From: Streptomyces sp. NBC_00443
GTDB lineage: Bacteria; Actinomycetota; Actinomycetes; Streptomycetales; Streptomycetaceae
Assembly (NCBI RefSeq): GCF_036014175.1
Contig: NZ_CP107917.1
Coordinates: 1,240,001 to 1,304,000, forward strand
Direction: 5' to 3'
Length of the DNA: 64,000 nucleotides
The first letter of the stretch is position 1; each line of letters begins with the position of its first letter. Position numbers and translations under genes: made by a program. Under the pieces are notes generated by a model. It searched no databases. It had not been told where the DNA came from and saw only the letters and a program-made list of their open reading frames with translations. Below, piece by piece: positions 1,361-18,441 of the stretch.

Positions 1361-1364
1361 GGCG

Positions 1365-2387: not shown

Positions 2388-2392
2388 CTGGC

Positions 2393-3034: not shown

Positions 3035-5049
3035 CAGCTCACCCTGGCCTCGACGAGGGACGGCTCGGGCTTCTCGGCGAAGGGCTCTCCATGGACGTAC
3101 CGGCCGAGTGCGGTGAGCGGGAAGACCTGCCGGTAGAGGTGGTAGTTGATCGAGAAGTCCCAGGGGAATCCGGTGCCGGTGAAGTACGGCTCGTCCCAGG
3201 AGCCGTCCTCCCGCTGGGTGGCCGCGAGCCACCCGACGCCGCGCTCGACGGCCTTGGAGTCCTTCTCCCCCGCCGCCAGCAGCGCCATCAGCGCCCATGC
3301 GGTCTGCGAGGCCGTGGAGGCGCCCTTGCCGCTCCACTCCTTGACGTATCTGTAGGAGCGCAGGTCCTCGCCCCAGCCGCCATCGTCGTTCTGGACGGAC
3401 TCCAGCCAGCTCACCGCGCGGCGGATCGCCGGGTGCGAGCCCGGGAAGCCGGCCGCCACCAGGGCGGGTACGACGGATCCGGTGCCGTAGACGTAGTTCA
3501 CGCCCCAGCGCCCGAACCACGAGCCGTCCGGCTCCTGCTCGGCGAGCAGCCACTGGATGCCGCGCCGGGTGCGCGGGTCGTGAGCGAGGCCCTCGACGGC
3601 CAGCATCTCCACCACGTGGGCCGTGACGTCCGCCGACGGCGGGTCGATGACCTCGCCGAAGTCGCAGAACGGCAGCCGGTTGGGGAAGGGGCTGGTGTTG
3701 TCGACGTCGAAGGCGCCCCACGCCCCGTTCCTCGACTGCATCCCGAGGTTCCAGCGCACCCCGCGGCCGATCGCCCGCTCCATCCGCTCCGGGTCGTGGT
3801 GCCTGACCCGGCGCAGCGCCAGGACCACCTCGGCGGTGTCGTCGATGTCGGGGTAGTTGTCGTTGTGGAACTCGAACGCCCAGCCGCCCGGCGGCAGTTG
3901 GGGCCGCTTGACCGCCCAGTCACCGGGCCGGACGATCTCCTCGCCCAGCATCCAGTCGGCGGCCTTGACGAGCTGCGGATGGTCGGCGGGCACACCCGCG
4001 TCGGCCAGCGCGATGGTCGCGAGGCAGGTGTCCCAGACCGGCGACTGACATGCCTCGATCATCCGGGCCCCGTCCTCGCGCCAGACGGCGAAGCGGTCCA
4101 GTGATGCCAGCCCCTCGCGCATCACGGGGTGCTGGAGGTCGTAGCCGAGCAGATGCAGGGCGATGATCGAGTACACCGCCGGCGGCTGGATGCCTCCCCA
4201 GCAGCCGTCGTTCTCCTGCCGCTCGATGATCCAGCGGGCGGCGCTGTTCATGGCCGCTCTGCGCAGCTTGCGCGGGGCGACCTTGCGCAGCTGGTGCAGT
4301 GCCTTGTCGAGCCGCTGGAAGGCGCCGTCCCAACTTGCCGCGGGAGCAAGGGGCTTGGGCGGGTTGGGGCGGGCCGGGTCGGTGTGCAGTTCGTCGAGCG
4401 GGAAGGGCGCGGGCCGTACCGGGCGCTTCGCGGAGACGACCGTCAGGGGGACGATGGTCTGCCGGGCCCAGCAGCCGAAGTCGTAGATGTTGAGCGGGAC
4501 CCACTTGGGGAAGTAGATGAGCTCCGGCGGGAGTTCGGGCAGGTCCTCCCACTTCCACCAGCCGAACAGGGCGAGCCAGATCCGGGTGAACACGCGGGAG
4601 GCGGCGATGCCGCCCTGCTCGCGGACCCATGCGGAGGCCTTCGCCATGTGCGGGGCGTCGGGCGTGTCGCCGGCCAGGCGGAGGGCGACGTAGGCCTCGA
4701 CGGTGGCGGAGAGTTCGCCGGGCGCGCCGTAGAAGGTGCCCCAGGTGCCGTCCTCGCGCTGCTCGCCCCGGATGAAGAGCGCGGCGGCCTGCGTGGTCTT
4801 CTCGTCTCGGATGCCCAGGAACTGACGGAGCAGCAGGTCCTCGGCGTCCATGGTGACGTTCGTCTCGAGGTCGCCCTTCCACCAGCCCTGGGCGTCCTGC
4901 TGCGCCAGCAGGAAGTCGGTGGCGCGCCGGGCGGCGCGTACGGCGGCTTCGTGGACCCCGGCCGCCACGGGGGCTTCCCTGTCGGTGTCGCTGGCCGCGG
5001 CTGCCCGGGGTGGCAGTGCCCCGGTGCTTCCGTCGGTCGTCGCTGTCAT
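3034..5049 (-). CDS. shc: squalene-hopene cyclase
   Basis: SHC cyclises squalene to hopene/hopanol at the membrane, the committed step to hopanoids. The product is 671 aa, close to the usual 630-680. The catalytic DxDD motif is DIDD at residues 401-404, and several QW repeats are visible (for example QDAQGWW near the N-terminus, QEPDGSWFGRWG and QREDGSW near the C-terminus). The ATG at 5049 was chosen because the 26 extra residues of the longer frame look non-conserved and a GAAGGGGAAG ribosome-binding site precedes 5049. A 141-nt gap separates it from the upstream polyprenyl synthase gene. Its stop overlaps the hpnG start. Confidence 0.97.
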   Translation of the reverse strand: MTATTDGSTGALPPRAAAASDTDREAPVAAGVHEAAVRAARRATDFLLAQQDAQGWWKGDLETNVTMDAEDLLLRQFLGIRDEKTTQAAALFIRGEQREDGTWGTFYGAPGELSATVEAYVALRLAGDTPDAPHMAKASAWVREQGGIAASRVFTRIWLALFGWWKWEDLPELPPELIYFPKWVPLNIYDFGCWARQTIVPLTVVSAKRPVRPAPFPLDELHTDPARPNPPKPLAPAASWDGAFQRLDKALHQLRKVAPRKLRRAAMNSAARWIIERQENDGCWGGIQPPAVYSIIALHLLGYDLQHPVMREGLASLDRFAVWREDGARMIEACQSPVWDTCLATIALADAGVPADHPQLVKAADWMLGEEIVRPGDWAVKRPQLPPGGWAFEFHNDNYPDIDDTAEVVLALRRVRHHDPERMERAIGRGVRWNLGMQSRNGAWGAFDVDNTSPFPNRLPFCDFGEVIDPPSADVTAHVVEMLAVEGLAHDPRTRRGIQWLLAEQEPDGSWFGRWGVNYVYGTGSVVPALVAAGFPGSHPAIRRAVSWLESVQNDDGGWGEDLRSYRYVKEWSGKGASTASQTAWALMALLAAGEKDSKAVERGVGWLAATQREDGSWDEPYFTGTGFPWDFSINYHLYRQVFPLTALGRYVHGEPFAEKPEPSLVEARVS

Positions 5050-5190
5050 GGCTTCCCCTTCGTGCAGTGCTACTGGTGTGCGTCTGCTGTGGGTCCGCCG
5101 TCGGCCGGTGCGCTGTTCACGCGGCACCGGCCGGCGACTAAGCGAGGGTTATTCGACCGATACTGATCATCTCTTTTCGCCCGCTGGTGA

Positions 5191-6327
5191 TCATCTCTTT
5201 CGTACGACGACGAAGTCGGCGAGTGCCGTGAACTGGTCCCGCACCCGGTCGGGCATGTCCACGGCGTCGAGGGCCTCGACGGCGATGGCGTGCTGTCGGC
5301 GCGCCTCACCGGCGGTCCACTCGCGGCCGCCCGCCTCCTCGATGAGGGCGGCGCGGGCGGCGAACTCCTCCTCGGAGAAGTTCTCGAAGTCGCTGCTCTT
5401 GGCGTCGGCGGCAAGGATCTCGCCGAGCTGCTCGGAGGCGGAGCCGCCCGCCGCGAGCGCGGCCACGACCGGCAGGGACTTCTTGCGCTGGCGCAGGTCG
5501 CTCCAGGTCTGCTTGCCGGTGGAGACGGGGTCGCCCCAGATGCCGAGGAGGTCGTCGACGGCCTGGAAGGCGAGGCCCAGGTGGTAGCCGTACTTCTCCA
5601 GCGTGTCGGCGGTGCGGTCGTCCGCGCCGCCGAGCACGGCGCCGATGGAGCTGGCGCAGGCGAGCAGGGCACCGGTCTTGTTGCCCTCCATCTCCAGGCA
5701 CTCCTCGACGCTGACGCGGTCGCGGTGCTCGTAGGAGATGTCCTGCGCCTGGCCGTCGATCAGGGCGCGGGTGGCGGTGGTCAGGCGGCGGGTGGCGCGG
5801 CCGGCCTCGACGGTGCCGAGCTCCAGCAGGACCTCGTTGGCGAGCGCGAACATGGCGTCGCCGACGAGGATGGCCTGCGCGGGCCCGTGCACCTTCCACA
5901 CGGTGTCGCGGTGGCGGCGCTGTTCGTCGCCGTCCATCAGGTCGTCGTGCAGCAGCGAGAAGTTGTGGACCAGTTCGACCGCGACGGCGCCGGGGATGCC
6001 GGCCTCGGGCTCGGCGCCGGTGACCTCGGCGGAGAGCACCGCGAGGGCCGGGCGTACGGCCTTGCCGCCGTCGCCGGCCGTGGGGTTGCCGTCGGCGTCG
6101 ATCCAGCCGAAGTGGTAGGCGGAAACGGTGTCCATGGGAGGGGCCAGGCGGTCGATCGCCGCCCGCAGTACCGGCGTGGCCAGGGTCCTACCGCGCTCCA
6201 GGAGCGCGGTCACGTCGACCGCGGTCTCTCGAGCGGCCTTCGAGGCCGGGGGCACAGTGGGCACGTTCTCTCCTCTTGTTGCGGTACCGGGGGTGCGGGG
6301 GCCTGCCGCCGTGTGCTGGTTCAGCAT
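5191..6327 (-). CDS. polyprenyl diphosphate synthase (trans-isoprenyl synthase)
   Basis: This all-helical prenyltransferase condenses IPP with an allylic diphosphate, presumably making FPP for the squalene enzymes beside it. The first Asp-rich motif is DDLMD (from D128). The second is DDLLG followed by WGD, so the usual fifth Asp is Gly. Length is 378 aa from the ATG at 6327, which overlaps the hpnE stop (TGATG) and has GAGGAGG 7 nt upstream. An alternative GTG at 6264 (21 codons later, with AGGAGAG upstream) would give a more usual N-terminus, MPTVPPASK, and may be the true start. Product chain length cannot be read from the sequence. Confidence 0.93.
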   Translation of the reverse strand: MLNQHTAAGPRTPGTATRGENVPTVPPASKAARETAVDVTALLERGRTLATPVLRAAIDRLAPPMDTVSAYHFGWIDADGNPTAGDGGKAVRPALAVLSAEVTGAEPEAGIPGAVAVELVHNFSLLHDDLMDGDEQRRHRDTVWKVHGPAQAILVGDAMFALANEVLLELGTVEAGRATRRLTTATRALIDGQAQDISYEHRDRVSVEECLEMEGNKTGALLACASSIGAVLGGADDRTADTLEKYGYHLGLAFQAVDDLLGIWGDPVSTGKQTWSDLRQRKKSLPVVAALAAGGSASEQLGEILAADAKSSDFENFSEEEFAARAALIEEAGGREWTAGEARRQHAIAVEALDAVDMPDRVRDQFTALADFVVVRKR

Positions 6328-7754
6328 CACGCCGCCTCCTCTACGTCGAAGAGGTGGCTGGGGCGGGGCCGGCCCAGGGCGCTCAGCGCGGCGCCGGCCG
6401 CACTCACGCCACTGCGGACCGCACTCTCCATGGTCGCGGGCCACCCTGTGGCGGTCCACGCTCCGGCCAGATACAGACCGGGTGCCTTGGTACGAGCGCC
6501 GGGCCGCAGCCGCCCGACGCCGGGAGTGGGAGCGAACGTCGCCGTACGCTCCCTGGTCACGAAGAAGTCCTTCACCTGCGCGCCCCGCGCCTTGGGCAAC
6601 AGCCGCTCCAGCTCGGGCAGATACCGCTCGCGCAGTGCGGCGACGGGTGTTTCGATCTCGTCCTGCGCGGCCGACTGGGACAGGGCAAGGTACTGGCCGT
6701 CCCGCAGCCCGGAGGCGGCGGTGCGGTCGAACACCCATTGCACCGGGGTGCCGAGCGCCGCGAAGAACGGCCGGCTGAGTACCTGCCGGTCGTAGACGAC
6801 ATGCACGTTCAGGATCGGCGCGGTGCCGATCTCCAGCAGCCGTTCGGGAGCGTCGAGGGCACCCTCGGGCAGCAGGTCGTGGGCCTCACGCTGGGCAACG
6901 GCCAGCACGACGGTGTCCGCCCGCAGCGTCTCGCCGGGAACCTGGACGCTCCAACGTCCGTTCTCGTCAGTGGAGATGGAGGTGACTCGTGTACGGACCT
7001 CGGTACGAACACCCGCGGAGTCGAGCGCCTTGCGGGCCAGCCGGTCGTGCAGGTCGCCCAGCGGGACATGCGCCCATCCGATGTCGGCCGCGCCCGGGTC
7101 GGACAGCAGACCGGTCTTGAACACCATCGCGGCGAGCCCCAGCGAGGCGCCGCCCGCGACCGCGTTGAGGGTGGCGACCCCGACCAGGTCCCACAGGGCC
7201 TCGACGGCACGCGCCGACTGACCGTGCGCGGTCAGCCAGCTGCCGAAGTCCTGGGTGTCCAGGGTCGGATCGGCGAGGTCGAGCCCCTTGAGTGCGAGCG
7301 CGGCACGCCCGACCTTGGCGCGTTCGGCGAGCGACAGATGCGGATACGTCGCCAGGCTGCGGCCCAGGTGCAGGGGTACGGGCAGCGCGTCGCGCCGCAG
7401 CCTGCCCAGGCGCCGCCCTTCGGGCCGCGCGGCGTCGACCACGGGCACGTCGAGGCGGTCCTGCAGCGGTGCGAGCGCCGTGCCCTCGATCCGGTCGAGG
7501 AACCAGCGGTAGGCGGTGCAGCAGCGCAGATAGACGTGCTGTCCGTTGTCGACGACCAGGTCGCCGCGCTGGAAGGAGAAGGCCAGGCCACCGAGCCTCG
7601 GCCTGCCCTCGATCAGCGTGACACGCACTCCGGCGTCGGCGAGGGCCAGCGCGGCGGTGATGCCGGCGAGCCCGCCGCCGATGACGACGGCGTCCTTCCC
7701 GGAGCCTGACGGGATGTCGGCGAGCGACCCTTGTAGCGGCGTGCCGTCGGTCAT
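6327..7754 (-). CDS. hpnE: hydroxysqualene dehydroxylase HpnE
   Basis: HpnE is an FAD-dependent amine-oxidase-type enzyme that reduces hydroxysqualene to squalene, the third step of the HpnCDE route. The product is 475 aa. The FAD dinucleotide motif is VIGGGLAG at about residues 24-31, followed by E49 of the ribose-binding acidic position. The C-terminal FAD motif region is GLYLAGAWTATGWPATMESAVRSG-like (described here in part: LAGAWT then ATMESAV). GGGGAGGG precedes the ATG at 7754. The ATG overlaps the stop of the 47-codon ORF upstream (ATGA), and its own stop overlaps the next gene's start. Confidence 0.94.
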   Translation of the reverse strand: MTDGTPLQGSLADIPSGSGKDAVVIGGGLAGITAALALADAGVRVTLIEGRPRLGGLAFSFQRGDLVVDNGQHVYLRCCTAYRWFLDRIEGTALAPLQDRLDVPVVDAARPEGRRLGRLRRDALPVPLHLGRSLATYPHLSLAERAKVGRAALALKGLDLADPTLDTQDFGSWLTAHGQSARAVEALWDLVGVATLNAVAGGASLGLAAMVFKTGLLSDPGAADIGWAHVPLGDLHDRLARKALDSAGVRTEVRTRVTSISTDENGRWSVQVPGETLRADTVVLAVAQREAHDLLPEGALDAPERLLEIGTAPILNVHVVYDRQVLSRPFFAALGTPVQWVFDRTAASGLRDGQYLALSQSAAQDEIETPVAALRERYLPELERLLPKARGAQVKDFFVTRERTATFAPTPGVGRLRPGARTKAPGLYLAGAWTATGWPATMESAVRSGVSAAGAALSALGRPRPSHLFDVEEAA

Positions 7755-7894
7755 CGTGCACCCTCCCCTGGCCGACCGCCGTGCAGGTGCTTGAACGGTG
7801 CACGGCCGGTCGTCTCAGTCAGGGACGCGACTCGGCAGCGGAGGGTTGCCCGCCACTTTTCGCCGGTGACATCACCTTGGACCGGAATGTCCAT
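7751..7894 (-). CDS. small conserved-context protein, 47 aa, nested between hpnD and hpnE
   Basis: This is a short ORF reading M-D-I-P-V-Q-G-D-V-T-G-E-K-W at the start and ending RPGEGAR, 47 aa, basic, with one Cys and no membrane segment. Its ATG at 7894 overlaps the hpnD stop (TGATG), and AGGAGG lies 8 nt upstream inside the last hpnD codons. Its TGA overlaps the hpnE ATG (ATGA). It therefore exactly fills what would otherwise be a 139-nt gap in a tightly packed operon. I think it matches the short Streptomyces family annotated DUF6380, from memory only. Its function is unknown; a role in coupling or assembly of the squalene enzymes is conceivable but unsupported. Confidence 0.75.
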   Translation of the reverse strand: MDIPVQGDVTGEKWRATLRCRVASLTETTGRAPFKHLHGGRPGEGAR

Positions 7895-8856
7895 CAGGCG
7901 CGCCTCCTGACGGCACGGCTGACGGTTCGGCGGGTCGCATGCCGCGCGTCCAGACCGGACAGACCTCGCACGGCGACGTAGGCCTTCTCGCGCCCGGGCA
8001 GTGAGACCCTGCCCCGCAGCACGGCCTCCGGGTCGCGCTCGATGCGGTCGAGGAGGCGCAGGTAGATGCCGGCCATCGCGGCGACGCAGGCACCGCTGCG
8101 CCGGTCCAGCATGGGCAGCAGCCGGTAGCCCTCGGCGAACAGGGCGCGGGCCCGACGCACTTCGAAGTGCACGAGGCCCGCGAAGTCGGAGCCCTCCGGC
8201 GGGGTCGGCCCGCTGAAGCCGGCCGAGCAGCCGAATTTTGCGAGGTCGTCGGAGGGCAGATAGGTGCGTCCGCCCTCGGCGTCCTCGCGGATGTCCCGCA
8301 GGATGTTGGTGAGCTGGAGGGCCAGCCCGAGCGTGTCGGCGTACTCGGGTGCGCGCTCGGCGCCGCGCGCGCCGGGCCCGGTGCCGAACACACCGAGCGA
8401 GAGCCGTCCGATGGCGCCGGCCACGCAGCGGCAGTAGACCTTCAGGTCGTCCCAGGTCTCGTAGGTCTCGCCGCGTACGTCCATCAGGACACCGTCGATG
8501 AGCTCGTCCAGCCCGCCGAGCGGGATCGGGAAGGCGCCGGCGGCGTGGGCGAGGGCGACGGCCACGGGGTCGGTGTCGTCCTCGGCGACCGCTCCGTCGC
8601 GGATCCGGGTCAGCAGCTTCCGGGTGTCCTCGAGCCTGGCGATCTTGACGTCACCGCTCAGGGCGCCGTCGCCGATGTCGTCGACCCGGCGCGAGAACGC
8701 GTACAGCGCCGACATCGCGCGGCGCTTCGGCGTGGGCAGCAGCCTGATGCCGTAAGCGAAGTTCCGGGCCTGCTGCCCTGTGACGGCCTCGCAGTAGCTG
8801 TAGGCGGCGAGTACCGGTGCGGACGCGTGTGGTGCAGACTCCACGGTCCGGATCAC
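7894..8856 (-). CDS. hpnD: presqualene diphosphate synthase HpnD
   Basis: HpnD joins two farnesyl diphosphates to presqualene diphosphate. The product is 320 aa, in the squalene/phytoene synthase fold. The two Asp-rich motifs are RRVDDIGD (D59, D60, D63) and NILRDIRED (about 187-195), with the SPxxR-like LPTPKRRAM stretch at 40-48 before the first. The start is a GTG at 8856 that overlaps the hpnC stop by 4 nt (GTGA). A second in-frame GTG four codons later is possible. The end carries AGGAGG, used by the following 47-codon ORF. Confidence 0.94.
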   Translation of the reverse strand: MIRTVESAPHASAPVLAAYSYCEAVTGQQARNFAYGIRLLPTPKRRAMSALYAFSRRVDDIGDGALSGDVKIARLEDTRKLLTRIRDGAVAEDDTDPVAVALAHAAGAFPIPLGGLDELIDGVLMDVRGETYETWDDLKVYCRCVAGAIGRLSLGVFGTGPGARGAERAPEYADTLGLALQLTNILRDIREDAEGGRTYLPSDDLAKFGCSAGFSGPTPPEGSDFAGLVHFEVRRARALFAEGYRLLPMLDRRSGACVAAMAGIYLRLLDRIERDPEAVLRGRVSLPGREKAYVAVRGLSGLDARHATRRTVSRAVRRRA

Positions 8857-9752
8857 CCCTCTCCTCGCAGAGTCACGCCCACCTCGCGCAGCAGCTGGAG
8901 CTTGCTGGCCTTGGGCGGGCCGGGAAGTACGTCGTATTCGGCGGCGGCGATCGCACGGACCGCCGCCCTTCCCCCGGCCACGAATCCCGCCAGCAGCAGC
9001 TTGAGCCTGCCGTGGACGCTACCCACCAGGGGGGTGCCTTCATTCAGGAGGTCCAGAGCGCGTTCGGCTTCGTATGCAACCAGGGCGCGCACCGATGCGC
9101 CTGCTGTTTTTGCCGCCAGATCGGTTTCCTGGACGTGAAAACGCTTCATGTCCTGCGCGGGCAGATAAATCCGGTCACGGCCGAGATCCTCGGCGACGTC
9201 CTGGAGGTGCTCGACGAGCTGCAGCGCGGTGCACACCGCGTCGGAACGGCGGATCCGCTCGGGCGTCCCGGTGCCGGTGACGGCGAGGACGAGCCGGCCG
9301 ACGGGGTTGGCCGACAGTTCGCAGTAGGCAAGGAGATCGTCGTAGGTCTCGTACCGCCCGACGAGCTGGTCCTGGCGGTTCGCGGCGATCAGGCCGAGGA
9401 AGGGCGCGGGGGTCAGTGAGCGGCGGCGGACGGTGTACTGCAGGCGGCGCAGCAGGGGGTGGCCGGGGGTGCCGTCGAAGACCCGGCGCAGGTCGGCCTC
9501 GAAGGCGTCGAGGAGCGCGAGCCGGTCCTCGGCCTCCTTGGGCGACACGCCGAGCAGACGGGCGTCGGCGCCGCCGGGAGCGAGATCGCCGTCGCCGATG
9601 TCGTCCACGAGGCGGGCGAAGCCGTACACGGCCATGAGGTCGGTCCGCCAGGCCTTGGGCAGGAAGAACGGCGCCACGGGGAAGTTCTCCGCGGCGGCCT
9701 TGTCGAGTGTGTCGCGCTCCGGTTCACCTGGACGCGCGGATTTTCCCGTCAC
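8853..9752 (-). CDS. hpnC: hydroxysqualene synthase HpnC
   Basis: HpnC converts presqualene diphosphate to hydroxysqualene and is a paralogue of HpnD. It shows VDDIGD at residues 49-54 and a second acidic motif, HLQDVAEDLGRDR, near residue 180. I chose the GTG at 9752 (299 aa), which begins VTGKSARPGEPER. The frame stays open to an ATG at 9782, but neither start has a strong ribosome-binding site, and the extra residues (MCRPCAGQST) look atypical. This is the first gene of the hopanoid operon, and the 388 nt upstream should hold its promoter. Confidence 0.92.
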   Translation of the reverse strand: MTGKSARPGEPERDTLDKAAAENFPVAPFFLPKAWRTDLMAVYGFARLVDDIGDGDLAPGGADARLLGVSPKEAEDRLALLDAFEADLRRVFDGTPGHPLLRRLQYTVRRRSLTPAPFLGLIAANRQDQLVGRYETYDDLLAYCELSANPVGRLVLAVTGTGTPERIRRSDAVCTALQLVEHLQDVAEDLGRDRIYLPAQDMKRFHVQETDLAAKTAGASVRALVAYEAERALDLLNEGTPLVGSVHGRLKLLLAGFVAGGRAAVRAIAAAEYDVLPGPPKASKLQLLREVGVTLRGEG

Positions 9753-10140
9753 CGTGGACTGCCCGGCGCAAGGACGGCACATGCTGCGTGGAGCTGGGGA
9801 GTTTCCGTAGCCATTGCCGTCACATCTCCCGTTCTACACCGCAGACCCAATGCGCACTATTTCGGACACGCCGCCCGGACGTCCGCGCCGCAGCCCGGAG
9901 AGAGGGGTGCCGTGCCTTATCGCCCTACTTGCCGCGTTTCGGTACCGGTACAGCTTACGTTGTACAACGGTGCGGGGCCCGTGGGGGTGTCCTGCACATC
10001 ACAACAACACACCGATTGGCGTCAAGCTTCCCAGGACCAGGCGAAGTTGACGTTTCCTTTGCAGACGCGGGGCCCCGCCGGGGCAGTTCCGGCGGGGCCC
10101 GGTCAAGCTTGGTGGGCCGCTCGGCCCATGTCCGGGTGGA
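9753..10140. other. intergenic region upstream of the hopanoid operon
   Basis: 388 nt lie between the hpnC start and the end of the exporter ATPase gene. No convincing ORF is present. It holds a strong hairpin at 10068-10102 (listed separately) and two perfect palindromes, GTACCGGTAC at 9942-9951 and CGTTGTACAACG at 9958-9969, about 190-215 nt upstream of hpnC. A 9-base repeat GTCAAGCTT occurs at 10021 and 10102. I could not identify a clear -10/-35 pair for the minus-strand operon. Confidence 0.6.
10068..10102 (-). terminator. hairpin terminator after the ABC exporter operon
   Basis: The inverted repeat has arms 10068-10081 and 10089-10102 (14 nt with one mismatch) around a 7-nt loop. It lies 38 nt after the stop codon of the ATPase gene on the minus strand. 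There is no U-run, as is usual in Streptomyces. It probably insulates the exporter operon from the hopanoid operon. Confidence 0.75.
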
Positions 10141-10935
10141 CTACTTGCCCGTGAACTTCTCGTACTCCTTGAGGACCTCGTCCGTCGGTCCGTCCATGCG
10201 CAGCTCGCCACGTTCCAGCCACAGGACGCGGTTGCAGGTGTCGCGGATCGACTTGTTGTTGTGACTGACGAGAAACACGGTGCCGGCTTCCTTGCGCAGC
10301 TCGCGGATGCGTTCCTCGGAGCGCTTCTGGAACTTGCGGTCGCCGGTGGCCAGCGCCTCGTCGATCATGAGGACGTCGTGGTCCTTGGCCGCGGCGATGG
10401 AGAAGCGCAGCCGGGCCGCCATGCCGGAGGAGTAGGTGCGCATCGGCAGGGTGATGAAGTCGCCCTTCTCGTTGATGCCCGAGAAGTCGACGATCTGCTG
10501 GTAGCGCTCCTTGATCTGCTCGCGGGACATGCCCATGGCGAGCCCGCCCAATATGACGTTGCGCTCGCCGGTGAGGTCGTTCATCAGTGCCGCGTTCACG
10601 CCCAGCAGCGAGGGCTGGCCGTCGGTGTAGACCTTGCCCTTCTCGGGCGGGAGCAGGCCGGCGATGGCGCGCAGCAGGGTGGACTTGCCGGAGCCGTTGG
10701 AGCCGATCAGGCCGATGGCCTCGCCGCGGTAGGCGACGAAGGAGACGCCGCGGACCGCGTGCACCTTGCGCACGCCCCGCGCCGCGTCGTCGGAGCCCCT
10801 CTTGAGGATGCGGCTGAGTGCGGCGGTGGCGCTGCCCTTGCCTGTCTTGGCGCCGTTGACGCGGTAGACGATGTGCAGCTCGTCCGCGATGACGGTGGGG
10901 ATGTGGGAATCCGTCCTCTGTTCAGCCACGGCCAT
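10141..10935 (-). CDS. ABC transporter ATP-binding protein, TagH/Wzt type (surface polymer export)
   Basis: This is the ATPase of a polysaccharide/teichoic-acid-type exporter, acting at the inner face of the membrane with the permease encoded just upstream. The product is 264 aa. Walker A is GSNGSGKST (residues 78-86), the signature is YSSGM (about 168) and Walker B is VLMIDEAL followed by a GDRKF stretch typical of this subfamily. There is no long C-terminal carbohydrate-binding domain, so it is the short TagH/RfbB-like form. The ATG at 10935 overlaps the permease gene by 14 nt, and GGAGGAG precedes it within the permease end. It is the last gene of the seven-gene operon. Confidence 0.93.
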   Translation of the reverse strand: MAVAEQRTDSHIPTVIADELHIVYRVNGAKTGKGSATAALSRILKRGSDDAARGVRKVHAVRGVSFVAYRGEAIGLIGSNGSGKSTLLRAIAGLLPPEKGKVYTDGQPSLLGVNAALMNDLTGERNVILGGLAMGMSREQIKERYQQIVDFSGINEKGDFITLPMRTYSSGMAARLRFSIAAAKDHDVLMIDEALATGDRKFQKRSEERIRELRKEAGTVFLVSHNNKSIRDTCNRVLWLERGELRMDGPTDEVLKEYEKFTGK

Positions 10936-11851
10936 ACCTCTCCTCCGCCTTCCAGAAGTACACGAAGCCGCCGACGGCCACCAGCATGGCCCAGCCGAGC
11001 GCGACCGCCCAGACGTGGTCGGGCAGGTTCGAGGAGCCGTAGCCGTCGATGAGGGCGAAGCGCATCAGGTCCATGTAGACGGCGGCCGGGTTCCACTGCA
11101 GGACGGTCGCGATCCACTCCGGCTTGCCCTTGAGCATGATCGGGATGGAGAACATCACGCCGGACGCGTACATCCACGTACGCATCACGAACGGCATCAG
11201 CTGCGCCAGGTCCGGGGTCTTCGAGCCCGCCCGGGCCATGATCATCGCGAGGCCGGTGTTGAAGAGGAACTGCAGGACGAGCACCGGCACGATCAGCAAC
11301 CAGGACATCGCCGGGTAGCTGCCGAAGCCCAGGGCCACGGCGAACAGCACGATCATCGAGTACAGCAGCTGCTGGAGCTGCTGGAGCGCGAAGGAGATCG
11401 GCAGTGAGGCGCGCGGGAAGTGCAGCGCGCGGACCAGGCCGAGGTTGCCGGAGATCGCGCGTACGCCCGCCATCACCGAGCTCTGCGTGAAGGTGAAGAC
11501 GAAGACGCCCGTGACCAGGAACGGGATGTACACCTCACGGGACATGCCGCGGTCGGCCTGGAGGATCAGGCCGAAGACAAGGAAGTACACGGCCGCGTTC
11601 AGCAGCGGGGTGGCCACCTGCCAGAGCTGGCCGAGCTTCGCCTGGCTGTACTGCGCGGTCAGCTTCGCCCGCGAGAACGCGAGGATGAAGTGCCGCCGGT
11701 CCCAGAGCTGACGGACGTACTCGAACAGCGAGGGGCGGGCGCCGCTCACGGACAGCCCGTACTTGGCGGCCAGCGCGGCCGCCGTGAGTCCCTCGTCGGG
11801 CGACGGAGGCGCGCTCACCGCGACTGAGCCGTCGTGCGTTGTCTCACTCAC
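10922..11851 (-). CDS. ABC transporter permease, TagG/Wzm type
   Basis: This integral membrane half of the ABC-2 exporter is 309 aa. An N-terminal cytoplasmic stretch (about 1-75, ending ...YSQAKLGQLWQV, the conserved interface before TM1) is followed by six hydrophobic segments between about 80 and 300. It is paired with the downstream ATPase. The start is a GTG at 11851 with only a weak ribosome-binding site, and about 100 nt separate it from the glycosyltransferase gene upstream. Substrate is not readable from sequence. The neighbouring CDP-alcohol phosphotransferases and GT2 suggest a phosphodiester-linked glycan or glycolipid. Confidence 0.92.
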   Translation of the reverse strand: MSETTHDGSVAVSAPPSPDEGLTAAALAAKYGLSVSGARPSLFEYVRQLWDRRHFILAFSRAKLTAQYSQAKLGQLWQVATPLLNAAVYFLVFGLILQADRGMSREVYIPFLVTGVFVFTFTQSSVMAGVRAISGNLGLVRALHFPRASLPISFALQQLQQLLYSMIVLFAVALGFGSYPAMSWLLIVPVLVLQFLFNTGLAMIMARAGSKTPDLAQLMPFVMRTWMYASGVMFSIPIMLKGKPEWIATVLQWNPAAVYMDLMRFALIDGYGSSNLPDHVWAVALGWAMLVAVGGFVYFWKAEERYGRG

Positions 11852-11950
11852 CAGTTGAAACTTTCGTCTTCGAGATGCGCAGCCTGTGCGGGCATGGCAT
11901 GAACCTGGGGCCGGGGTACGGTCCGGTGGCTGCTCTCAGGGTCGAGCTTG

Positions 11951-12835
11951 TCAGATGACGGGAGGTCGGCCCAGTCGGGTCAGCCGCCACACCGTACGCC
12001 ACTTCATGGGCCTGCGGGGACCGCATGAAGTGGTCCAGCCTTCCCGGAATCCGCCGAACCATGCCCGCAGGGCGGGGCGGGAGGGGCGGCGGGCCAGGGT
12101 CAGCAGCATCCAGACGCCCAGATAGACCGGGACAAGGGGCGCGGGGAGGTTGCGGCGGGCCAGCCAGACGCGGTTGCGGGCGACCATGCGGTGGTAGACC
12201 GCGTGCCGCGAGGGCGCGGTCGTGGGGTGGTACAGCACCATGTCGGACCGGTAGTCGATCATCCAGCCCGCGTCGAGGGCCCGCCATGCCAGGTCGGTTT
12301 CCTCGTGCGCGTAGAAAAATTCGTCCGGCAGCCCGCCGACTTCGGCGAAGACCTGGGTGCGGACGGCGTTGGCGCCGCCGAGGAAGGTGGTGACCCGGGA
12401 GGAGCGCATCGGGTCGGAGGCGCGCAGCCGGGGGACGTGCCGGCGCTGGGTGACGCCGTTGTCCGGGTCGGCGATGCGGAAGCTGATGATGCCGAGCTGC
12501 GGGTCGGCAGCGAACGCTTCGCGGCACAGCTCGGCGGTGTCGTGGTGGGCGAGGAGACCGTCGTCGTCGAGGAAGAGCAATATGTCGACATCGTGACCAC
12601 TGGGGCCGAAGGCCTCGATGCCGACGTTGCGGCCGCCGGGAATGCCGAGGTTCTCCGGCAGCTCGATCGTCCGGACGCCTTCGGGGACGTCCGGGACCGG
12701 GGAGCCGTTGCCGACGACGACGACCTCGACCCGGTCGCCGTCCTGCTTGGCGACGGAGTCGAGGAGGGCGCGCAGTTCGTCGGGGCGGTTGCCCATCGTG
12801 ATGATCACCGCGCCGACCTTCATCGGCGCGCTCAC
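11951..12835 (-). CDS. GT2-family glycosyltransferase
   Basis: This 294-aa enzyme has an N-terminal GT-A fold. It begins with a typical strand (VGAVIITMGNRPDEL) and has a DDDG metal/nucleotide motif near residue 95 (ILLFLDDDG), an NLGIPGGRNVGI loop and a HEETDLAWR acidic catalytic region near 190-200. It resembles rhamnosyl/galactosyl transferases of surface polymers, but the sugar and acceptor cannot be assigned. I used the GTG at 12835, which overlaps the preceding stop by 4 nt (GTGA). An ATG four codons later (12823) is the alternative. It belongs to the exporter operon. Confidence 0.9.
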   Translation of the reverse strand: MSAPMKVGAVIITMGNRPDELRALLDSVAKQDGDRVEVVVVGNGSPVPDVPEGVRTIELPENLGIPGGRNVGIEAFGPSGHDVDILLFLDDDGLLAHHDTAELCREAFAADPQLGIISFRIADPDNGVTQRRHVPRLRASDPMRSSRVTTFLGGANAVRTQVFAEVGGLPDEFFYAHEETDLAWRALDAGWMIDYRSDMVLYHPTTAPSRHAVYHRMVARNRVWLARRNLPAPLVPVYLGVWMLLTLARRPSRPALRAWFGGFREGWTTSCGPRRPMKWRTVWRLTRLGRPPVI

Positions 12836-13611
12836 TTCAGCCTGCTCGACGCGAGGATGGACACGAGGTGCAGCACGGTCTGCAGCAGCGCGATGCCGGC
12901 CAGCACCGCGACGCCGAGCCGGGAGAAGAACAGGTCGCCGCGAATCTGGTCGACGATCGCCAGGACCAGGATCAGCAGGGACGCCTCGATACCGAGGACG
13001 AGACGGTGGAACTTGAGGGCACCGGCGGCCTTGCGAGCCAGCGCCATGCCGGAGGAGCGCATCTCGGACGCGGCCTCCTGGACCGGCGGCTTCCCGGCCT
13101 GGTGCCGGGCGACTCCGACGAGGTCGGTCTCGGCCTTGATCAGGATGGCGCCGAGGGCGGCCAGGGTGCCGAGGAAGGCCCACAGCCAGTCGATACGGCC
13201 GCTGCCCCACAGGTCGGCCGCACGCAGGCCGAAACCGACGAGCACCGCGGCGTCGGTGAGGTAGGCGCCGACGCGGTCGAGGTAGACCCCGCCCAGGGAG
13301 TACTGCTTCTTCCAGCGCGCGATCTCGCCGTCGACGCAGTCCAGCAGCAGGTAGAGCTGGACCATGACCACGCCGAGCACGGCCCCCGGGATCCCCGGCA
13401 CGAGAAGTGCCGGGGCCGCGAGGACGCCGCATACGGTCATCAGGTATGTGAGCTGGTTGGGCGTGACCCTGGTGTTCACCAGGTAGCGGTCGACCCGCAG
13501 GGACACCTCGCGCATGTAGAGGCGTCCCATCCAGTGCTCACCGCTGCGCCTGTCCTTCACCCCCGCGGGGTGAACGACGGGGCGGAGTTCAGCTACCGAT
13601 GGCCTTGACAT
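12832..13611 (-). CDS. CDP-alcohol phosphatidyltransferase family protein with incomplete active-site motif
   Basis: This is an integral membrane protein of 259 aa with about six hydrophobic segments. The family motif D-xx-DG-xx-AR-x8-G-xxx-D-xxx-D is present as D91, D94-G95, A98-R99, G108 and D112. The fourth Asp, normally the catalytic base, is Ala at 116 (LDRVGAY); an Asp does occur at 120. The enzyme would transfer a phospho-alcohol from a CDP donor, but with this change activity is uncertain; it could be a partner of the second family member upstream or use Asp120. The ATG at 13611 overlaps the previous gene by 23 nt, and its end overlaps the glycosyltransferase. Confidence 0.88.
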   Translation of the reverse strand: MSRPSVAELRPVVHPAGVKDRRSGEHWMGRLYMREVSLRVDRYLVNTRVTPNQLTYLMTVCGVLAAPALLVPGIPGAVLGVVMVQLYLLLDCVDGEIARWKKQYSLGGVYLDRVGAYLTDAAVLVGFGLRAADLWGSGRIDWLWAFLGTLAALGAILIKAETDLVGVARHQAGKPPVQEAASEMRSSGMALARKAAGALKFHRLVLGIEASLLILVLAIVDQIRGDLFFSRLGVAVLAGIALLQTVLHLVSILASSRLK

Positions 13612-14650
13612 AGTCGGCGTAGATGTCCTTGATCTGGTCGGTTGTCAGGTCGAGGTGTTCGAGGATCGTGTAGCGGCCGGGCCTGGTCTGCGGAGCGAAC
13701 TCCACGGCGCGGACGAACTCGTCGTCCGTGAAGCCGATCTCCTCCGGCAGTACCGGCAGCCCGTGCCGGCGCAGCACCTCGGCCATGTAGGCCGACTCCT
13801 CGTGAGCTCCGCGCAGGTACATCGCGAAGGCCGCGCCCAGTCCGCACTGCTCGCCGTGGGCGGCGGCGCGCCTCGGGAACAGCAGGTCGAAGGCGTGGTT
13901 GATCTCGTGGCACGCGCCGGAGGACGGGCGGGAGTCGCCCGACACCGACATGGCGATACCGCTGAGCACCAGGGCCTCCGCCAGCACCTGGAGGAAGTCG
14001 GTGTCCCCGATGCCGCCGGGGTGGCGCAGCACCGCCTCGCCGGCCTGCCGGGCGATCGCCGCCGCGAGGCCGTCGATCTTCTCGCCCTTGACGCGGTTCG
14101 CCAGCTCCCAGTCGGCGATGGCCGAGATGTTGGAGATGGCATCGCCGATACCCGCGCGCACGAACCGCACCGGGGCATCGCGGATGACGTCCAGGTCGAT
14201 GACGACCGCGATCGGGTTCGGCACACCGTAGGAGCCGCGCCCGGCGTCGTTGTCGAGGGTGGCGACCGGCGAGCACAGACCGTCGTGCGCCAGGTTCGTC
14301 GGTACGGCGACCAGCGGCAGGCCGACGCGCGCCGAGGCGAACTTGGCGCAGTCGATGATCTTGCCGCCGCCGAGCCCGACGACCGCGTCGTAGTGGCCGG
14401 CCCTTATGGCACCGGCCAGCTGGACCGCGTCGTCGAGGGTGCCGCCGCCGACCTCGTACCAGGTGGCGCCGGGCAGCGCGGGAGCGAGGCGCTCCTTGAG
14501 CCGGGCGCCGGAGCCGTTGCTGACCGCGATGGCCAGCTTGCCGGAGTGCGAGATGCGCTCGTCGGCGAGCACACAGGCCAGGTCGTCGAGGGCACCCGGG
14601 CGGATGTCGACGACGACCGGCGAGGGGATGAGCCGGGTCAGTACAGGCAC
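13589..14650 (-). CDS. iron-containing alcohol dehydrogenase, sn-glycerol-1-phosphate dehydrogenase-like
   Basis: This 353-aa NAD(P)-dependent protein belongs to the Fe-ADH/dehydroquinate synthase superfamily, closest in look to the AraM/EgsA glycerol-1-phosphate dehydrogenase group. It shows GGGKIIDCAK (G94-K103) for nucleotide binding, and likely metal ligands in DNDAG/DGL, the CHEINHAFD histidine and the HGEQCG histidine. In this operon it could supply a reduced phospho-polyol (for example glycerol 1-phosphate) to the nucleotidyltransferase encoded just upstream. That is inference; another keto-sugar phosphate is possible. The GTG at 14650 overlaps the preceding gene by 13 nt, and its end overlaps the next gene by 23 nt. 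Confidence 0.85.
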   Translation of the reverse strand: MPVLTRLIPSPVVVDIRPGALDDLACVLADERISHSGKLAIAVSNGSGARLKERLAPALPGATWYEVGGGTLDDAVQLAGAIRAGHYDAVVGLGGGKIIDCAKFASARVGLPLVAVPTNLAHDGLCSPVATLDNDAGRGSYGVPNPIAVVIDLDVIRDAPVRFVRAGIGDAISNISAIADWELANRVKGEKIDGLAAAIARQAGEAVLRHPGGIGDTDFLQVLAEALVLSGIAMSVSGDSRPSSGACHEINHAFDLLFPRRAAAHGEQCGLGAAFAMYLRGAHEESAYMAEVLRRHGLPVLPEEIGFTDDEFVRAVEFAPQTRPGRYTILEHLDLTTDQIKDIYADYVKAIGS

Positions 14651-15390
14651 GCGATCTCCCGTCCGCGGGCGAGATCGTCGTGATTGTCGATCTCCACCCA
14701 CTTGACGTCGCCGATCGGCGCCACGTCGATGCGGAAGCCGCGGTTCACGAGCTCCTGGTAGCCGTGCTCGTAGAACTGCTGCGGGTCGGTCTCCCACACC
14801 GCCTTGAGGGCGTCGGCCAGCTCGGGGGCGGCGTCGCCCTCGATGAGGGTCACGCCGATGTACTCACCGCTCGCCTCGGCGGGGTCCATCAGCTTGGTGA
14901 TCTTCGTCATGCCCTTCTCGGGGTCGACGACGACCTTCATCTCCTCGTCGGCCAGGCTCTTCACCGTGTCCAGGGCGAGGATGATCTTCTTGCCGTCGCC
15001 GCGGGCGGCGAGCAGCGTCTTCTCGACGGAGACCGGGTGCACGGTGTCGCCGTTGGCGAGGATCACACCGTCCTTGAGGGCGTCACGGCCGCACCACAGG
15101 GAGTAGGCGTTGTTCCACTCCTCGGCCTTGTCGTTGTCGATGAGCGTGAGCTTCAGGCCGTACTTCTGCTCAAGGGCTTCCTTGCGCGCGTACACGGCCT
15201 CCTTGCGGTAGCCGACGATGACCGCGACCTCGGTCAGACCGATCTCGGCGAAGTTACCGAGGGTCAGGTCGAGAACCGTGGGTTCGCCCTCTATGCCCGC
15301 GGGCCCCACCGGCACCAGAGCCTTGGGAAGGCTGTCGGTGTAGGGGCGCAGACGCCGTCCGGCGCCGGCCGCCAGCACGAGGCCGATCAT
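14638..15390 (-). CDS. sugar/polyol-phosphate nucleotidyltransferase
   Basis: This 250-aa protein has a nucleotidyltransferase fold. It starts with the signature LAAGAGRRLRPYT...PKAL...V (residues about 5-28), has an ANGDTVHP metal-binding Asp near 115 and an EIDNHDDL element near the C-terminus. It resembles LicC-type cytidylyltransferases as well as hexose-1-phosphate types. Between CDP-alcohol phosphotransferases the most economical reading is CTP-dependent activation of an alditol or inositol phosphate. Its ATG overlaps the stop of the 602-aa phosphotransferase gene (ATGA), pointing to coupled synthesis of the two. Confidence 0.88.
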   Translation of the reverse strand: MIGLVLAAGAGRRLRPYTDSLPKALVPVGPAGIEGEPTVLDLTLGNFAEIGLTEVAVIVGYRKEAVYARKEALEQKYGLKLTLIDNDKAEEWNNAYSLWCGRDALKDGVILANGDTVHPVSVEKTLLAARGDGKKIILALDTVKSLADEEMKVVVDPEKGMTKITKLMDPAEASGEYIGVTLIEGDAAPELADALKAVWETDPQQFYEHGYQELVNRGFRIDVAPIGDVKWVEIDNHDDLARGREIACLY

Positions 15391-17195
15391 GCGGGTTCTC
15401 CTTCATCGTGTACGGCGGGTGCCCCGGAGGACACCCAGAAGCGGATGCTCTCGACGAGCACCACCAAGGCCACGGCCACGGCGAGCACCGTGAGCGCGAC
15501 GCTGAACTGCGAGGCGGAGAGCACCGCGGCGAGGACGGTGACGAGCAGCGTCCGTCCTTCGTGCCCCCCGATGGCGCGCACCAGCCAGGCCGGGGGCGCT
15601 CCGGCGTTGCCGCGGATGCGGTACACCGTGTCGTAGTGATGGTAGGCGACAGCGGCCACCAGGCCGAAAGCCGCAGGAAGGGCTCCGTTTACCTCAGCTT
15701 TGGCTGCGAGCAGCAGGACGACGCCGTACTCGGCGGCCCGGAAGAAGGGCGGGACCAGCCAGTCGAGGGCGCCCTTGAGGGGGCGGGCGACGGCCAGGGC
15801 CGAGGTGACGGCGTAGACGACGGCGCCGACGACCGCCCAGGGACCGCCGAAGCCGGGCTGCGCGGCCAGGCCGAGGAGGACGAGGCCGCCGAGGAGGGCC
15901 ACGGCGGGGGCGGCGATGCCGGGCAGCCGGCCCGCGGCGTTCTTGAAGACACCGGCGAGGCCCTGCGCGAGCGGGCCCGAGTCCGCGAGGTCGGCCAGCG
16001 CCTGGGCGGCCCGGTCGGTTCGCCGCGCCTTCCGCGTCAGCGACCGCAGCACCCGCCCCGCCGTGGTGTACGTCGCCGCGAAGGCACAGCCGACGAGCAG
16101 GACGTAGAAGGTGATGCGGGGCGTCGTGACGGCTGTGAGCACCGCGATCATCGCCCAGCGCTCGCCGATCGGCAGGACGATCATCCGGCGCACCCACACC
16201 GTCCAGCCGACGCTGTCGAGCTTGTCGGACAGTGCGGCGGTGGGGCTGGTGTTCGCGGTGGCGTCGTGGTTGGCCTCGTTGAAGGAGAAGTCGACGACGT
16301 GCCGGCAGGTCTGGAGGACCATCGCGCCGAGGGCGAGGGCCCATACGTCGTCCCCGCCTCGGGCGGCTCCCAGCGCGAGGCCGGCGTAGTAGGCGTACTC
16401 CTTGGCCCGGTCGAAGGTGGCGTCGAGCCAGGCGCCGAGCGTGGAGTACTGGAGGGAGTAGCGGGCGAGCTGGCCGTCGGTGCAGTCCAGGACGAAGGAC
16501 GCGATCAGCAGGACGCCGGCCGCGATGAACCCGCCCCGGGTGCCGGTGGCCGCGCAGCCCGCCGCGATGAGCGCGGTGATGAGGGAGGCGGTGGTGACCT
16601 GGTTGGGGGTCAGGCCCCGGCGGGCGCACCAGCGGGCGATGTAGCGGGAGTAAGGGCTGATGCAGAAGGTCGTGAAGAAGCCGTCGCGGGACTTCACGGC
16701 CGACCTCAGGCGTACGGCCTCGTCGTCGACGGCGGCGACGGCCTGCCGGGCCTCGTGGCGGGCCTGCGGGTCGGCCGGTACGGCGGCGACCAGGCTGCCG
16801 AGCTCGGGACGGTGCACGTCGGTGCCGTCGTGGTCTAGGGCGGTGACGATGCGGTCGGCGAGGCTGTCGACGGCGACGGCCGTACCGCCGCCGGCGGAGT
16901 TCTCGCGGGCCATCGCCCGGGTCAGCGCCTGGCGTCCGGCCGGCTGGGCCGTCACGGCGCCCGGGATCGCGGCGAGCGCGAAGCGGGGGTCGGTCAGGCC
17001 GAGGCGCAGCGCGTGCAGGTGACCGACGAAGCCGGCGTCGACCACGGCGACCCGCTGGTCGCCGGGCACCTGGGCGAGCAGGGTCTCGGCGTCGGCGGTG
17101 TCGGCGGCGACCCGCACGTCATAGCCGAGGGACCGCAGATCGCCCTCGATCGACGATCCGGGCACCGGCTGACCGGTGAGGATGGCGGTCGACAA
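15387..17195 (-). CDS. two-part CDP-alcohol phosphatidyltransferase with N-terminal nucleotidyltransferase-like region and C-terminal membrane domain
   Basis: The product is 602 aa. Residues about 1-160 are soluble and resemble a degenerate nucleotidyltransferase or regulatory domain, without the LAAG..R motif. Residues about 180-400 form a CDP-alcohol phosphatidyltransferase domain with a complete motif: D237, D240-G241, A244-R245, G254, D258, D262. Residues about 410-600 hold further hydrophobic helices, which I recall as a DUF5941-type domain. It is the first gene of the operon. The start is a TTG at 17195 preceded by AGGGAG, and no better ATG or GTG is near. Donor and acceptor are unknown. 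Confidence 0.85.
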   Translation of the reverse strand: MSTAILTGQPVPGSSIEGDLRSLGYDVRVAADTADAETLLAQVPGDQRVAVVDAGFVGHLHALRLGLTDPRFALAAIPGAVTAQPAGRQALTRAMARENSAGGGTAVAVDSLADRIVTALDHDGTDVHRPELGSLVAAVPADPQARHEARQAVAAVDDEAVRLRSAVKSRDGFFTTFCISPYSRYIARWCARRGLTPNQVTTASLITALIAAGCAATGTRGGFIAAGVLLIASFVLDCTDGQLARYSLQYSTLGAWLDATFDRAKEYAYYAGLALGAARGGDDVWALALGAMVLQTCRHVVDFSFNEANHDATANTSPTAALSDKLDSVGWTVWVRRMIVLPIGERWAMIAVLTAVTTPRITFYVLLVGCAFAATYTTAGRVLRSLTRKARRTDRAAQALADLADSGPLAQGLAGVFKNAAGRLPGIAAPAVALLGGLVLLGLAAQPGFGGPWAVVGAVVYAVTSALAVARPLKGALDWLVPPFFRAAEYGVVLLLAAKAEVNGALPAAFGLVAAVAYHHYDTVYRIRGNAGAPPAWLVRAIGGHEGRTLLVTVLAAVLSASQFSVALTVLAVAVALVVLVESIRFWVSSGAPAVHDEGEPA

Positions 17196-17472
17196 CCGAA
17201 CTCACTCCCTGGGTACCGGCATTCGCGCCGGTCATGTACATGGTGGCGGCGCCCCCGCCGGTGTCGGCCGGGCGGCGTGTCGGCAGAGGCTATCGGATGA
17301 TTGGAAGCCAACGTTCACCGGCCGTTTGGCGGAGCGATCAACGTGGTTTGCCCTGAGCTTTGCCGCGATCATCATCAGGGATTACGGGGTCCGCCCACAA
17401 ACTCGCGCTCGCAGACCGGGGCATCGGGGACATTGCCTACCCCGCCGGGGGCCCGTCATAGGGTGGGCGACC
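17196..17472. other. divergent intergenic region before galE and the exporter operon
   Basis: 277 nt separate the operon's TTG start (minus) from galE (plus). It should contain both promoters. A CATGTACATG palindrome is at 17233-17242, and TAGGGT at 17459-17464 fits a -10 element for galE. No ORF is convincing. Confidence 0.5.
17459..17464 (+). promoter_or_regulatory. candidate -10 element (TAGGGT) of a leaderless galE transcript
   Basis: TAGGGT matches TAnnnT and ends 8 nt before the galE ATG, so transcription would start at or beside the start codon. I did not find a convincing -35 at normal spacing. Confidence 0.45.
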
Positions 17473-18441
17473 ATGACATGGCTGATCACAGGCGGAGCCG
17501 GCTACATCGGAGCACATGTGGCGCGGGCCATGACCGACGCCGGGGAGCGGGTCCTCGTACTGGACGACCTCTCGGCCGGGTATCCCGCCCGGCTCCCTGC
17601 GGACGTCCCGCTCGTCGAGGGCTCGGCGCTGGACGGTGACCTGCTGAAGCGCGTGTTCGCGGAGCACGCGGTGACGGGTGTGGTGCATCTCGCCGCGCGC
17701 AAGCAGGTCGGGGAGTCCGTGGCGCAGCCGACGCGCTACTACACGGAGAACGTGGGCGGCCTCGCCACACTCCTGGAGGCGGTCGCCGAGGCGGGGATCA
17801 AGCGGTTCCTGTTCTCGTCGTCCGCGGCCGTCTACGGCAACCCGGATGTGGACCTCATCACGGAGGACACTCCGTGCGCGCCGGTGAACCCGTACGGCGA
17901 GACCAAGCTCACCGGCGAGTGGCTGGTGCGGGCGGCGGGCCGGGCGCACGGCATCGCGACCGTGTGCCTGCGCTATTTCAACGTCGCCGGCGCCGCGTCG
18001 CCCGAGCTGGCCGACACGGGCGTCTTCAACATCGTCCCCATGGTCTTCGACCGGCTCACCCGCGACGAGGCGCCGCGGATCTTCGGCGACGACTATCCGA
18101 CGCCGGACGGCACCTGCGTCCGCGACTACATCCATGTCGCCGACCTCGCCGAGGCTCACCTGGCGGCGGCCCGGCGGCTCAGCGAAGGGGACGCAAGCGG
18201 CGATCTGACGGTCAACATCGGTCGCGGCGAGGGCGTCTCCGTCCGCGAACTGATCACCGTCATCGCCGAAGTCACCGGTGACGCACGCCCCGCCCTCGTC
18301 GAGGACCGGCGCCCCGGAGACGCCCCGCGCGCGGTCGCGTCGGCCGCACTGGCGGCCGAGGAGCTGGGCTGGACGGCTCGGCGCGGGGTACCCGAGATGG
18401 TCGAGTCGGCGTGGCAGGGGTGGCTGTTGCACCACGGCTAG
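17473..18441 (+). CDS. galE: UDP-glucose 4-epimerase family protein
   Basis: This 322-aa extended short-chain dehydrogenase/epimerase interconverts UDP-glucose and UDP-galactose or a related pair. It has a Rossmann TGGAGYIG (residues 6-13) and the catalytic triad Ser in SSSAAVYG (115-121), Tyr141 and Lys145 (YGETK). The C-terminus contains RDYIHVADLAEAH, typical of GalE. It is transcribed divergently from the polyol-phosphate operon and could feed sugar nucleotide to the GT2 enzyme there, but it may equally serve general metabolism. A longer open frame upstream (to 17176) lacks coding character. Confidence 0.93.
   Translation: MTWLITGGAGYIGAHVARAMTDAGERVLVLDDLSAGYPARLPADVPLVEGSALDGDLLKRVFAEHAVTGVVHLAARKQVGESVAQPTRYYTENVGGLATLLEAVAEAGIKRFLFSSSAAVYGNPDVDLITEDTPCAPVNPYGETKLTGEWLVRAAGRAHGIATVCLRYFNVAGAASPELADTGVFNIVPMVFDRLTRDEAPRIFGDDYPTPDGTCVRDYIHVADLAEAHLAAARRLSEGDASGDLTVNIGRGEGVSVRELITVIAEVTGDARPALVEDRRPGDAPRAVASAALAAEELGWTARRGVPEMVESAWQGWLLHHG

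Follow-up and report, generated by a model that had tools for sequence, protein, structure and literature searches.

Positions 10141-17195 of the stretch analysed here (the window, i.e. 64,000 nucleotides of Streptomyces sp. NBC_00443, G000:C1:1240001-1304000 of a 9.45-Mb chromosome) are filled by seven open reading frames (ORFs) on the minus strand, each of which matches its named family (table 1). In gene order, they encode a CDP-alcohol phosphotransferase (CDPOH1), a nucleotidyltransferase (NTPT), a protein resembling glycerol-1-phosphate dehydrogenase (G1PDH), a second CDP-alcohol phosphotransferase-like protein (CDPOH2), a GT2 glycosyltransferase, and the permease and ATPase of an ABC exporter. 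With the GTG starts listed for G1PDH and GT2, five of the six junctions overlap (by 4, 13, 23, 4 and 14 nt in gene order) and the GT2-permease junction is the sole gap (99 nt); the initial annotation had likewise described seven genes on one strand with five overlapping junctions. The TTG start of CDPOH1 at 17195, common to most Streptomyces relatives, is unusual for the first gene of a conserved operon.

Table 1. Features of the operon and its surroundings (window positions).
Feature	Position	Strand	Remarks
CDPOH1	15387..17195	-	CDP-OH-P transferase + DUF5941, 602 aa, TTG start; family matches, motif intact in 72 Streptomyces copies
NTPT	14638..15390	-	nucleotidyltransferase, 250 aa; LicC/PntC/IPCT-like, proposed CTP:sn-glycerol-1-phosphate cytidylyltransferase
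G1PDH-like Fe-ADH	13589..14650	-	353 aa from GTG 14650; proposed dihydroxyacetone phosphate -> sn-glycerol-1-phosphate
CDPOH2	12832..13611	-	CDP-alcohol phosphotransferase-like membrane protein, 259 aa; fourth motif Asp lost (A116, then Y117)
GT2 glycosyltransferase	11951..12835	-	294 aa from GTG 12835; family match
ABC-2 exporter permease, TagG/Wzm-like	10922..11851	-	309 aa; 72% identical paralogue in own-genome TagF locus
ABC exporter ATPase, TagH/Wzt-like	10141..10935	-	264 aa; 85% identical paralogue in own-genome TagF locus
-10-like element AGGCTATCGGATG	17287-17299		conserved; repeat about 20 nt upstream of element
PHO-box-like direct repeat GTTCACCGGCCGTTTG	17313..17328	+	upstream of CDPOH1; window copy has 2 mismatches in 10
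galE-like UDP-hexose epimerase	17473..18441	+	divergent, upstream of CDPOH1; name read from translation
HpnC	8853..9782	-	first gene of adjoining hopanoid cluster 185-9782; neighbour, not counted as part of the system

Of 80 named Streptomyces loci compared, 74 represent this main locus. Gene order is kept in every one of the 74 stretches, with all seven genes present in 70 and the other four reaching contig ends; galE lies upstream in 55, and hopanoid genes follow downstream in all 66 stretches long enough to show them. The NTPT gene is present in 61 of 61 sampled Streptomyces genomes, and DUF5941, the C-terminal domain of CDPOH1, was found among 149 members of the order in every Streptomyces listed plus a few members of one other family. 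Order-level relatives (L049 and L050, and L048 within its stretch) keep the set with galE inside the operon and no hopanoid genes, phylum-level relatives (L036, L037 and L039) have most or all of the cassette at about 35-52% identity, and two others (L035 and L040) carry only a three-gene core of NTPT, G1PDH and CDP-alcohol phosphotransferase. Since the order is kept in 74 Streptomyces stretches and the set in distant actinobacteria, this arrangement is not due to chance, and the genes do stay together, as the initial annotation had supposed. In L036 and L037, DUF5941 is encoded as a separate ORF, and CDPOH1 is therefore a fusion in Streptomyces. The operon is ordinary for Streptomyces, yet uncharacterised: our literature search on DUF5941, on the S. 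coelicolor genes SCO6753-6758 and on sn-glycerol-1-phosphate (G1P) with a cytidylyltransferase or CDP-glycerol in Streptomyces found no functional study.

The three-gene cores (L035:9378-11858 and L040:4498-10183) have a single CDP-alcohol phosphotransferase and neither exporter nor GT2, that of L040 lying within an aromatic amino acid gene region; possibly, they represent an ancestral module. A second ORF of 604 aa with a CDP-alcohol phosphotransferase domain elsewhere in the genome (L004/L009) was considered as a paralogous cluster and rejected, its neighbourhood being unrelated.

By its sequence, NTPT is placed with the LicC/PntC/IPCT (COG1213-type) cytidylyltransferases. Its top three solved matches are LicC (phosphocholine), a PntC-type fusion and 4jd0, the inositol-1-phosphate cytidylyltransferase (IPCT) of T. 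maritima; cytidylyltransferases outrank sugar nucleotidyltransferases among its profile matches, and its signature (LAAGAGRR, PK23, NGD115, NDKAEEWNNAYS, WVEID235) includes the catalytic K23 and D115. The use of CTP, as previously proposed, thus appears likely from these CTP-using relatives. For the dehydrogenase, the best model is PRK00843, NAD(P)-dependent glycerol-1-phosphate dehydrogenase, with 250 bits (curated cut-off 413) compared to 90 bits for the glycerol dehydrogenase model; the nearest solved structures are of the G1PDH type, and GGGK96 as well as the metal positions D172/H250/H267 are kept. These profile and structure matches support its earlier designation as a G1PDH-like protein in a putative polyol-phosphate route.

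Both CDP-alcohol phosphotransferases are closest to AF2299, IPCT-DIPPS and PIP synthases in profile and structure matches. CDPOH1 consists of a soluble N-terminal domain, the phosphotransferase and DUF5941, and has a complete D237-D240-G-AR-G-D258-D262-R263 motif of the AF2299/DIPPS/PIPS class; the corresponding D1xxD2GxxAR...GxxxD3xxxD4 motif is whole in all 72 Streptomyces copies in which it is readable. With a mean predicted local distance difference test (pLDDT) score of 69.5, the predicted model is too weak for assigning the N-terminal domain or DUF5941. In PgsA1 of M. tuberculosis, the residue equivalent to D262, D93, presumably serves as the base, and use of the phosphorylated acceptor requires R94 (PMC6506517). 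At the D4 position of CDPOH2, however, Ala is found in 70 and His in four of 74 Streptomyces copies (Ala116-Tyr117 in the window copy, whose Pfam domain still scores over the cut-off), so that CDPOH2, lacking the presumed catalytic base in all copies, would be either non-catalytic or work differently. The initial annotation was right about its family but missed this degenerate active-site motif with its lost fourth Asp.

The exporter ATPase has its best match in the TagH model (187 bits, cut-off 320); the permease is matched best by galactan exporter models, which come third for the ATPase, all scores being far under cut-off. The best profile matches are consistent with the TagGH/Wzm-Wzt-type pair proposed previously. 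The sole close paralogues of this pair (table 1) are found in a TagF cluster of the same genome, which also holds a galE paralogue and lies outside the operon, with four full-length TagF-type (PF04464) genes near 5.57-5.59 Mb. Wall teichoic gene sets of S. coelicolor have been assigned to SCO2589-2590 and SCO2979/SCO2998 (PMC3937824), and a nearby secA-like gene suggests that the TagF cluster corresponds to the SCO2979/SCO2998 set. TagF is present in 57 of the 61 Streptomyces genomes. A second NTPT-G1PDH pair occurs in five other Streptomyces loci (L095, L097, L101, L103 and L104; 86-88% NTPT identity), with an RNase E-like gene on one side, obgE on the other and TagF-type genes nearby, a neighbour in L097 being a confirmed GT2-TagF fusion, and in the order-level relatives L048-L050 it is the cassette itself that adjoins a GT2-TagF fusion. 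From the absence of TagF-type polymerases, the initial annotation had concluded that the product may be a novel phosphoglycolipid or short polymer; this argument is not supported, as the same genome carries four TagF genes beside the exporter paralogue and relatives have TagF-type genes beside the cassette.

What supplies CDP-glycerol in these genomes? TagD (TIGR01518) does not exceed its cut-off in any of the 61 Streptomyces genomes, including that of the window, a point missed by the initial annotation, and the dehydrogenase-NTPT pair is therefore the best candidate source. Among the 56 genomes with strong TagF matches, 22 have neither a TagD-like protein of at least 55 bits nor a second IspD/TarI-like protein, and 11 TagF-positive Streptomyces genomes combine zero TagD matches with no second IspD/TarI candidate. 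Among 297 actinobacterial genomes, NTPT was found in 16 and TagD in 13, with no co-occurrence, and NTPT associates with TagF (11 of 16 genomes; genus-level Fisher p = 0.006). PcrB was absent in all 31 Streptomyces searched; the known bacterial ether lipid is therefore not where G1P ends up, and a prenyl ether lipid made via PcrB was rejected as a product.

Setting out from what is directly observed, i.e. gene content, conservation, paralogy with TagF loci, lack of a curated TagD and of PcrB, the repeat described below and the motif states, we infer every substrate and the order of steps of the following mechanism. The G1PDH-like protein would reduce dihydroxyacetone phosphate to G1P, which NTPT would couple with CTP to give CDP-1-glycerol, which mirrors the TagD product in its stereochemistry. 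CDPOH1 would transfer phosphoglycerol from CDP-1-glycerol to a membrane acceptor, with CDPOH2 as an altered or non-catalytic partner that perhaps assists CDPOH1; GT2 would add a sugar, possibly with UDP-galactose from GalE, and the TagGH-like pair would flip or export the lipid-linked product. TagF-type polymerases encoded elsewhere probably draw on this CDP-glycerol pool as well. Thus, we favour, with moderate confidence, the operon being a system of the teichoic-acid type that has a non-orthologous CDP-glycerol supply of its own. A more tentative extension is that Streptomyces and scattered other actinobacteria make CDP-1-glycerol, a donor of archaeal handedness, via G1PDH and a LicC-type enzyme, produce surface glycerol-phosphate polymers of a stereochemistry opposite to that of classical wall teichoic acid (WTA) and prime them with a CDP-alcohol phosphotransferase instead of TagB. 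In B. subtilis, WTA and lipoteichoic acid do differ in their glycerol phosphate enantiomer, with GlpQ telling them apart (PMC7086022), and the accepted enantiomer can vary among TagF-like enzymes (PMC8262930).

Several points weigh against a teichoic-acid-type system. To our knowledge, there is no precedent for two CDP-alcohol phosphotransferases in teichoic acid synthesis, and NTPT and G1PDH both score under their curated equivalog cut-offs. A TagD-like protein at 55-70 bits in 26 of the 61 Streptomyces genomes (approx. 40%, including that of the window) and a second IspD-like protein in about half of Streptomyces could also make a CDP-alditol. In the sample of 297 actinobacterial genomes, five that have NTPT are without strong TagF. 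The NTPT-TagD exclusion loses significance when restricted to TagF genera (p = 0.18), so that the phylum-wide distribution is supportive only. Moreover, S. coelicolor walls are reported to contain mainly teichulosonic acid and polydiglycosylphosphate, not glycerol phosphate (PMC7831098), and the final product may therefore differ from poly(glycerol phosphate).

The main rival explanation, in line with the initial annotation, is a dedicated phosphoglycolipid or short phosphodiester, made by CDPOH1/CDPOH2 joining CDP-1-glycerol to inositol phosphate, glycerol phosphate or a lipid, then glycosylated by GT2 and exported by the ABC pair independently of TagF polymers. The AF2299/DIPPS/PIPS-like nature of CDPOH1, with an Arg following the fourth Asp, a feature shared with enzymes that have phosphorylated acceptors (PMC6506517), would suit such a product, as would the operon's own exporter, the NTPT-positive genomes without strong TagF and the archaeal synthesis of glycerophosphoinositol from CDP-1-glycerol (PMC8262930). 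We nevertheless consider it unlikely, with the exporter paralogue and the NTPT-G1PDH duplicates sitting at TagF loci and the cassette adjoining TagF fusions in order-level relatives. Less likely still is that the dehydrogenase-NTPT pair handles another compound, i.e. a different ketose phosphate, phosphoglycerate or similar, and yields a CDP-alditol or CDP-acid other than CDP-glycerol. Sub-cut-off equivalog scores leave room for this, and CpgD, a relative within the NTPT family, has CDP-glycerate as its product and does not accept G1P (PMC12275187), but the much higher score of the dehydrogenase with the G1PDH than with the glycerol dehydrogenase profile, its G1PDH-type nearest structures, its kept metal positions and the co-duplication of the pair at TagF loci speak against it.

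Finally, the operon could be accessory to the hopanoid genes, adding a phosphorylated head group to hopanoids or exporting them. In all 66 Streptomyces main-locus stretches that reach far enough, these genes come next on the operon's strand; in the window, the cluster (185-9782, minus strand) comprises HpnC, HpnD, HpnE, a prenyl synthase, SHC, an HpnG-like protein, HpnH and IspG, as named from the translations; the initial annotation of the operon mentions neither this cluster nor galE. However, a gap of approx. 360 nt separates operon and cluster, HpnC-E are not next to the cassette in L045 and L046, and it has no hopanoid neighbours in order- and phylum-level relatives. A hopanoid function is thus very improbable and was rejected as the primary role.

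Parts of the proposed teichoic-acid-type system are familiar from other pathways. With TagD-TagB/F-TagGH of B. subtilis WTA synthesis it would share a CTP-activated glycerol phosphate donor, along with a TagGH-like exporter and TagF-type polymerases in the genome, but a LicC/IPCT-type enzyme plus G1PDH would stand in for a curated TagD, there are two CDP-alcohol phosphotransferases, and TagF is at another locus. The archaeal CDP-1-glycerol/glycerophosphoinositol and IPCT-DIPPS pathways likewise combine a cytidylyltransferase with an AF2299/DIPPS-class phosphotransferase and have G1P as a donor source (PMC8262930); here, in contrast, the proteins are separate, the operon includes a G1PDH gene, GT2 and an ABC exporter, and the proposed role is at the surface rather than that of a solute. 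A bacterial G1PDH is also part of the AraM-PcrB ether lipid route of B. subtilis, whereas in Streptomyces, with PcrB lacking in the 31 genomes searched, G1P would pass to a cytidylyltransferase. Replacement of a TagD-type enzyme by a LicC/IPCT-type (COG1213) cytidylyltransferase has its parallel in CpgD of Caulobacter ceramide diphosphoglycerate synthesis (PMC12275187), but CpgD uses phosphoglycerate, not G1P, and the product is a sphingolipid. A GT2 adjoining an ABC-2 exporter pair is also seen with the mycobacterial galactan exporter Wzm-Wzt and GlfT1; here, however, CDP-alditol rather than galactofuranose genes accompany it, and the scores are far under cut-off.

An upstream site may subject the operon to phosphate control. 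About 135 nt before the CDPOH1 start, there is a direct repeat, TGAAC-N6-TGAAC (GTTCA on the other strand), with 11-nt spacing. It is found with at most one mismatch in 61 of 72 Streptomyces loci as against 0.3% of mononucleotide shuffles (a descriptive number, since the loci are related), and the sequence flanking it has diverged among these loci. Because the window copy by itself is not above chance (24 matches versus 21.7 expected at two mismatches), the argument from the repeat is a purely comparative one. As a sequence, the repeat agrees with a PhoP (PHO) box. The zitB gene of S. coelicolor is SCO6751 (PMC5472717) and its hopanoid genes are SCO6759-71 (PMC2374992), and therefore the operon should, by synteny, lie within SCO6752-6758. 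For SCO6753, a gene within this interval, regulation by PhoP has been predicted: it has a PHO box or dyad, and its expression is altered without phoP (PMC4173021).

If the teichoic-acid-type pathway is correct, the missing CDP-glycerol step of Streptomyces wall polymer synthesis would be filled, and a bacterial G1P dehydrogenase would gain a role other than in ether lipids. The universal presence of this uncharacterised operon, with its possible phosphate control site, in the Streptomyces sampled would also be explained. We know of no earlier bacterial source of CDP-1-glycerol. A 2021 study called this compound likely absent from bacteria (PMC8262930), an assumption which the pathway would contradict.

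Some further relatives of these enzymes were seen in other contexts. The TagD-like protein of the own genome (L140:9437-9808, G000:C1:3725436-3725807; 62.7 bits), with YTEHTSST replacing RTEGISTT, is encoded in a polysaccharide locus beside a ribosomal protein operon, with a CDP-alcohol phosphotransferase approx. 9 kb away. The second IspD-like domain (G000:C1:6120245-6120937), found in about half of Streptomyces, is part of an ORF of approx. 516 aa, a possible TarI-type fusion. At L107:6956-15156, NTPT occurs alone at the RNase E/obgE site, near a CDP-alcohol phosphotransferase relative, an acyltransferase-like gene and a 559-aa gene with no assigned family. In a small-genome actinobacterium (L041:6311-9100), an NTPT relative has two neighbours, a CDP-alcohol phosphotransferase relative and a class V aminotransferase similar to 2-aminoethylphosphonate aminotransferase, and the three may be a phosphonolipid module.

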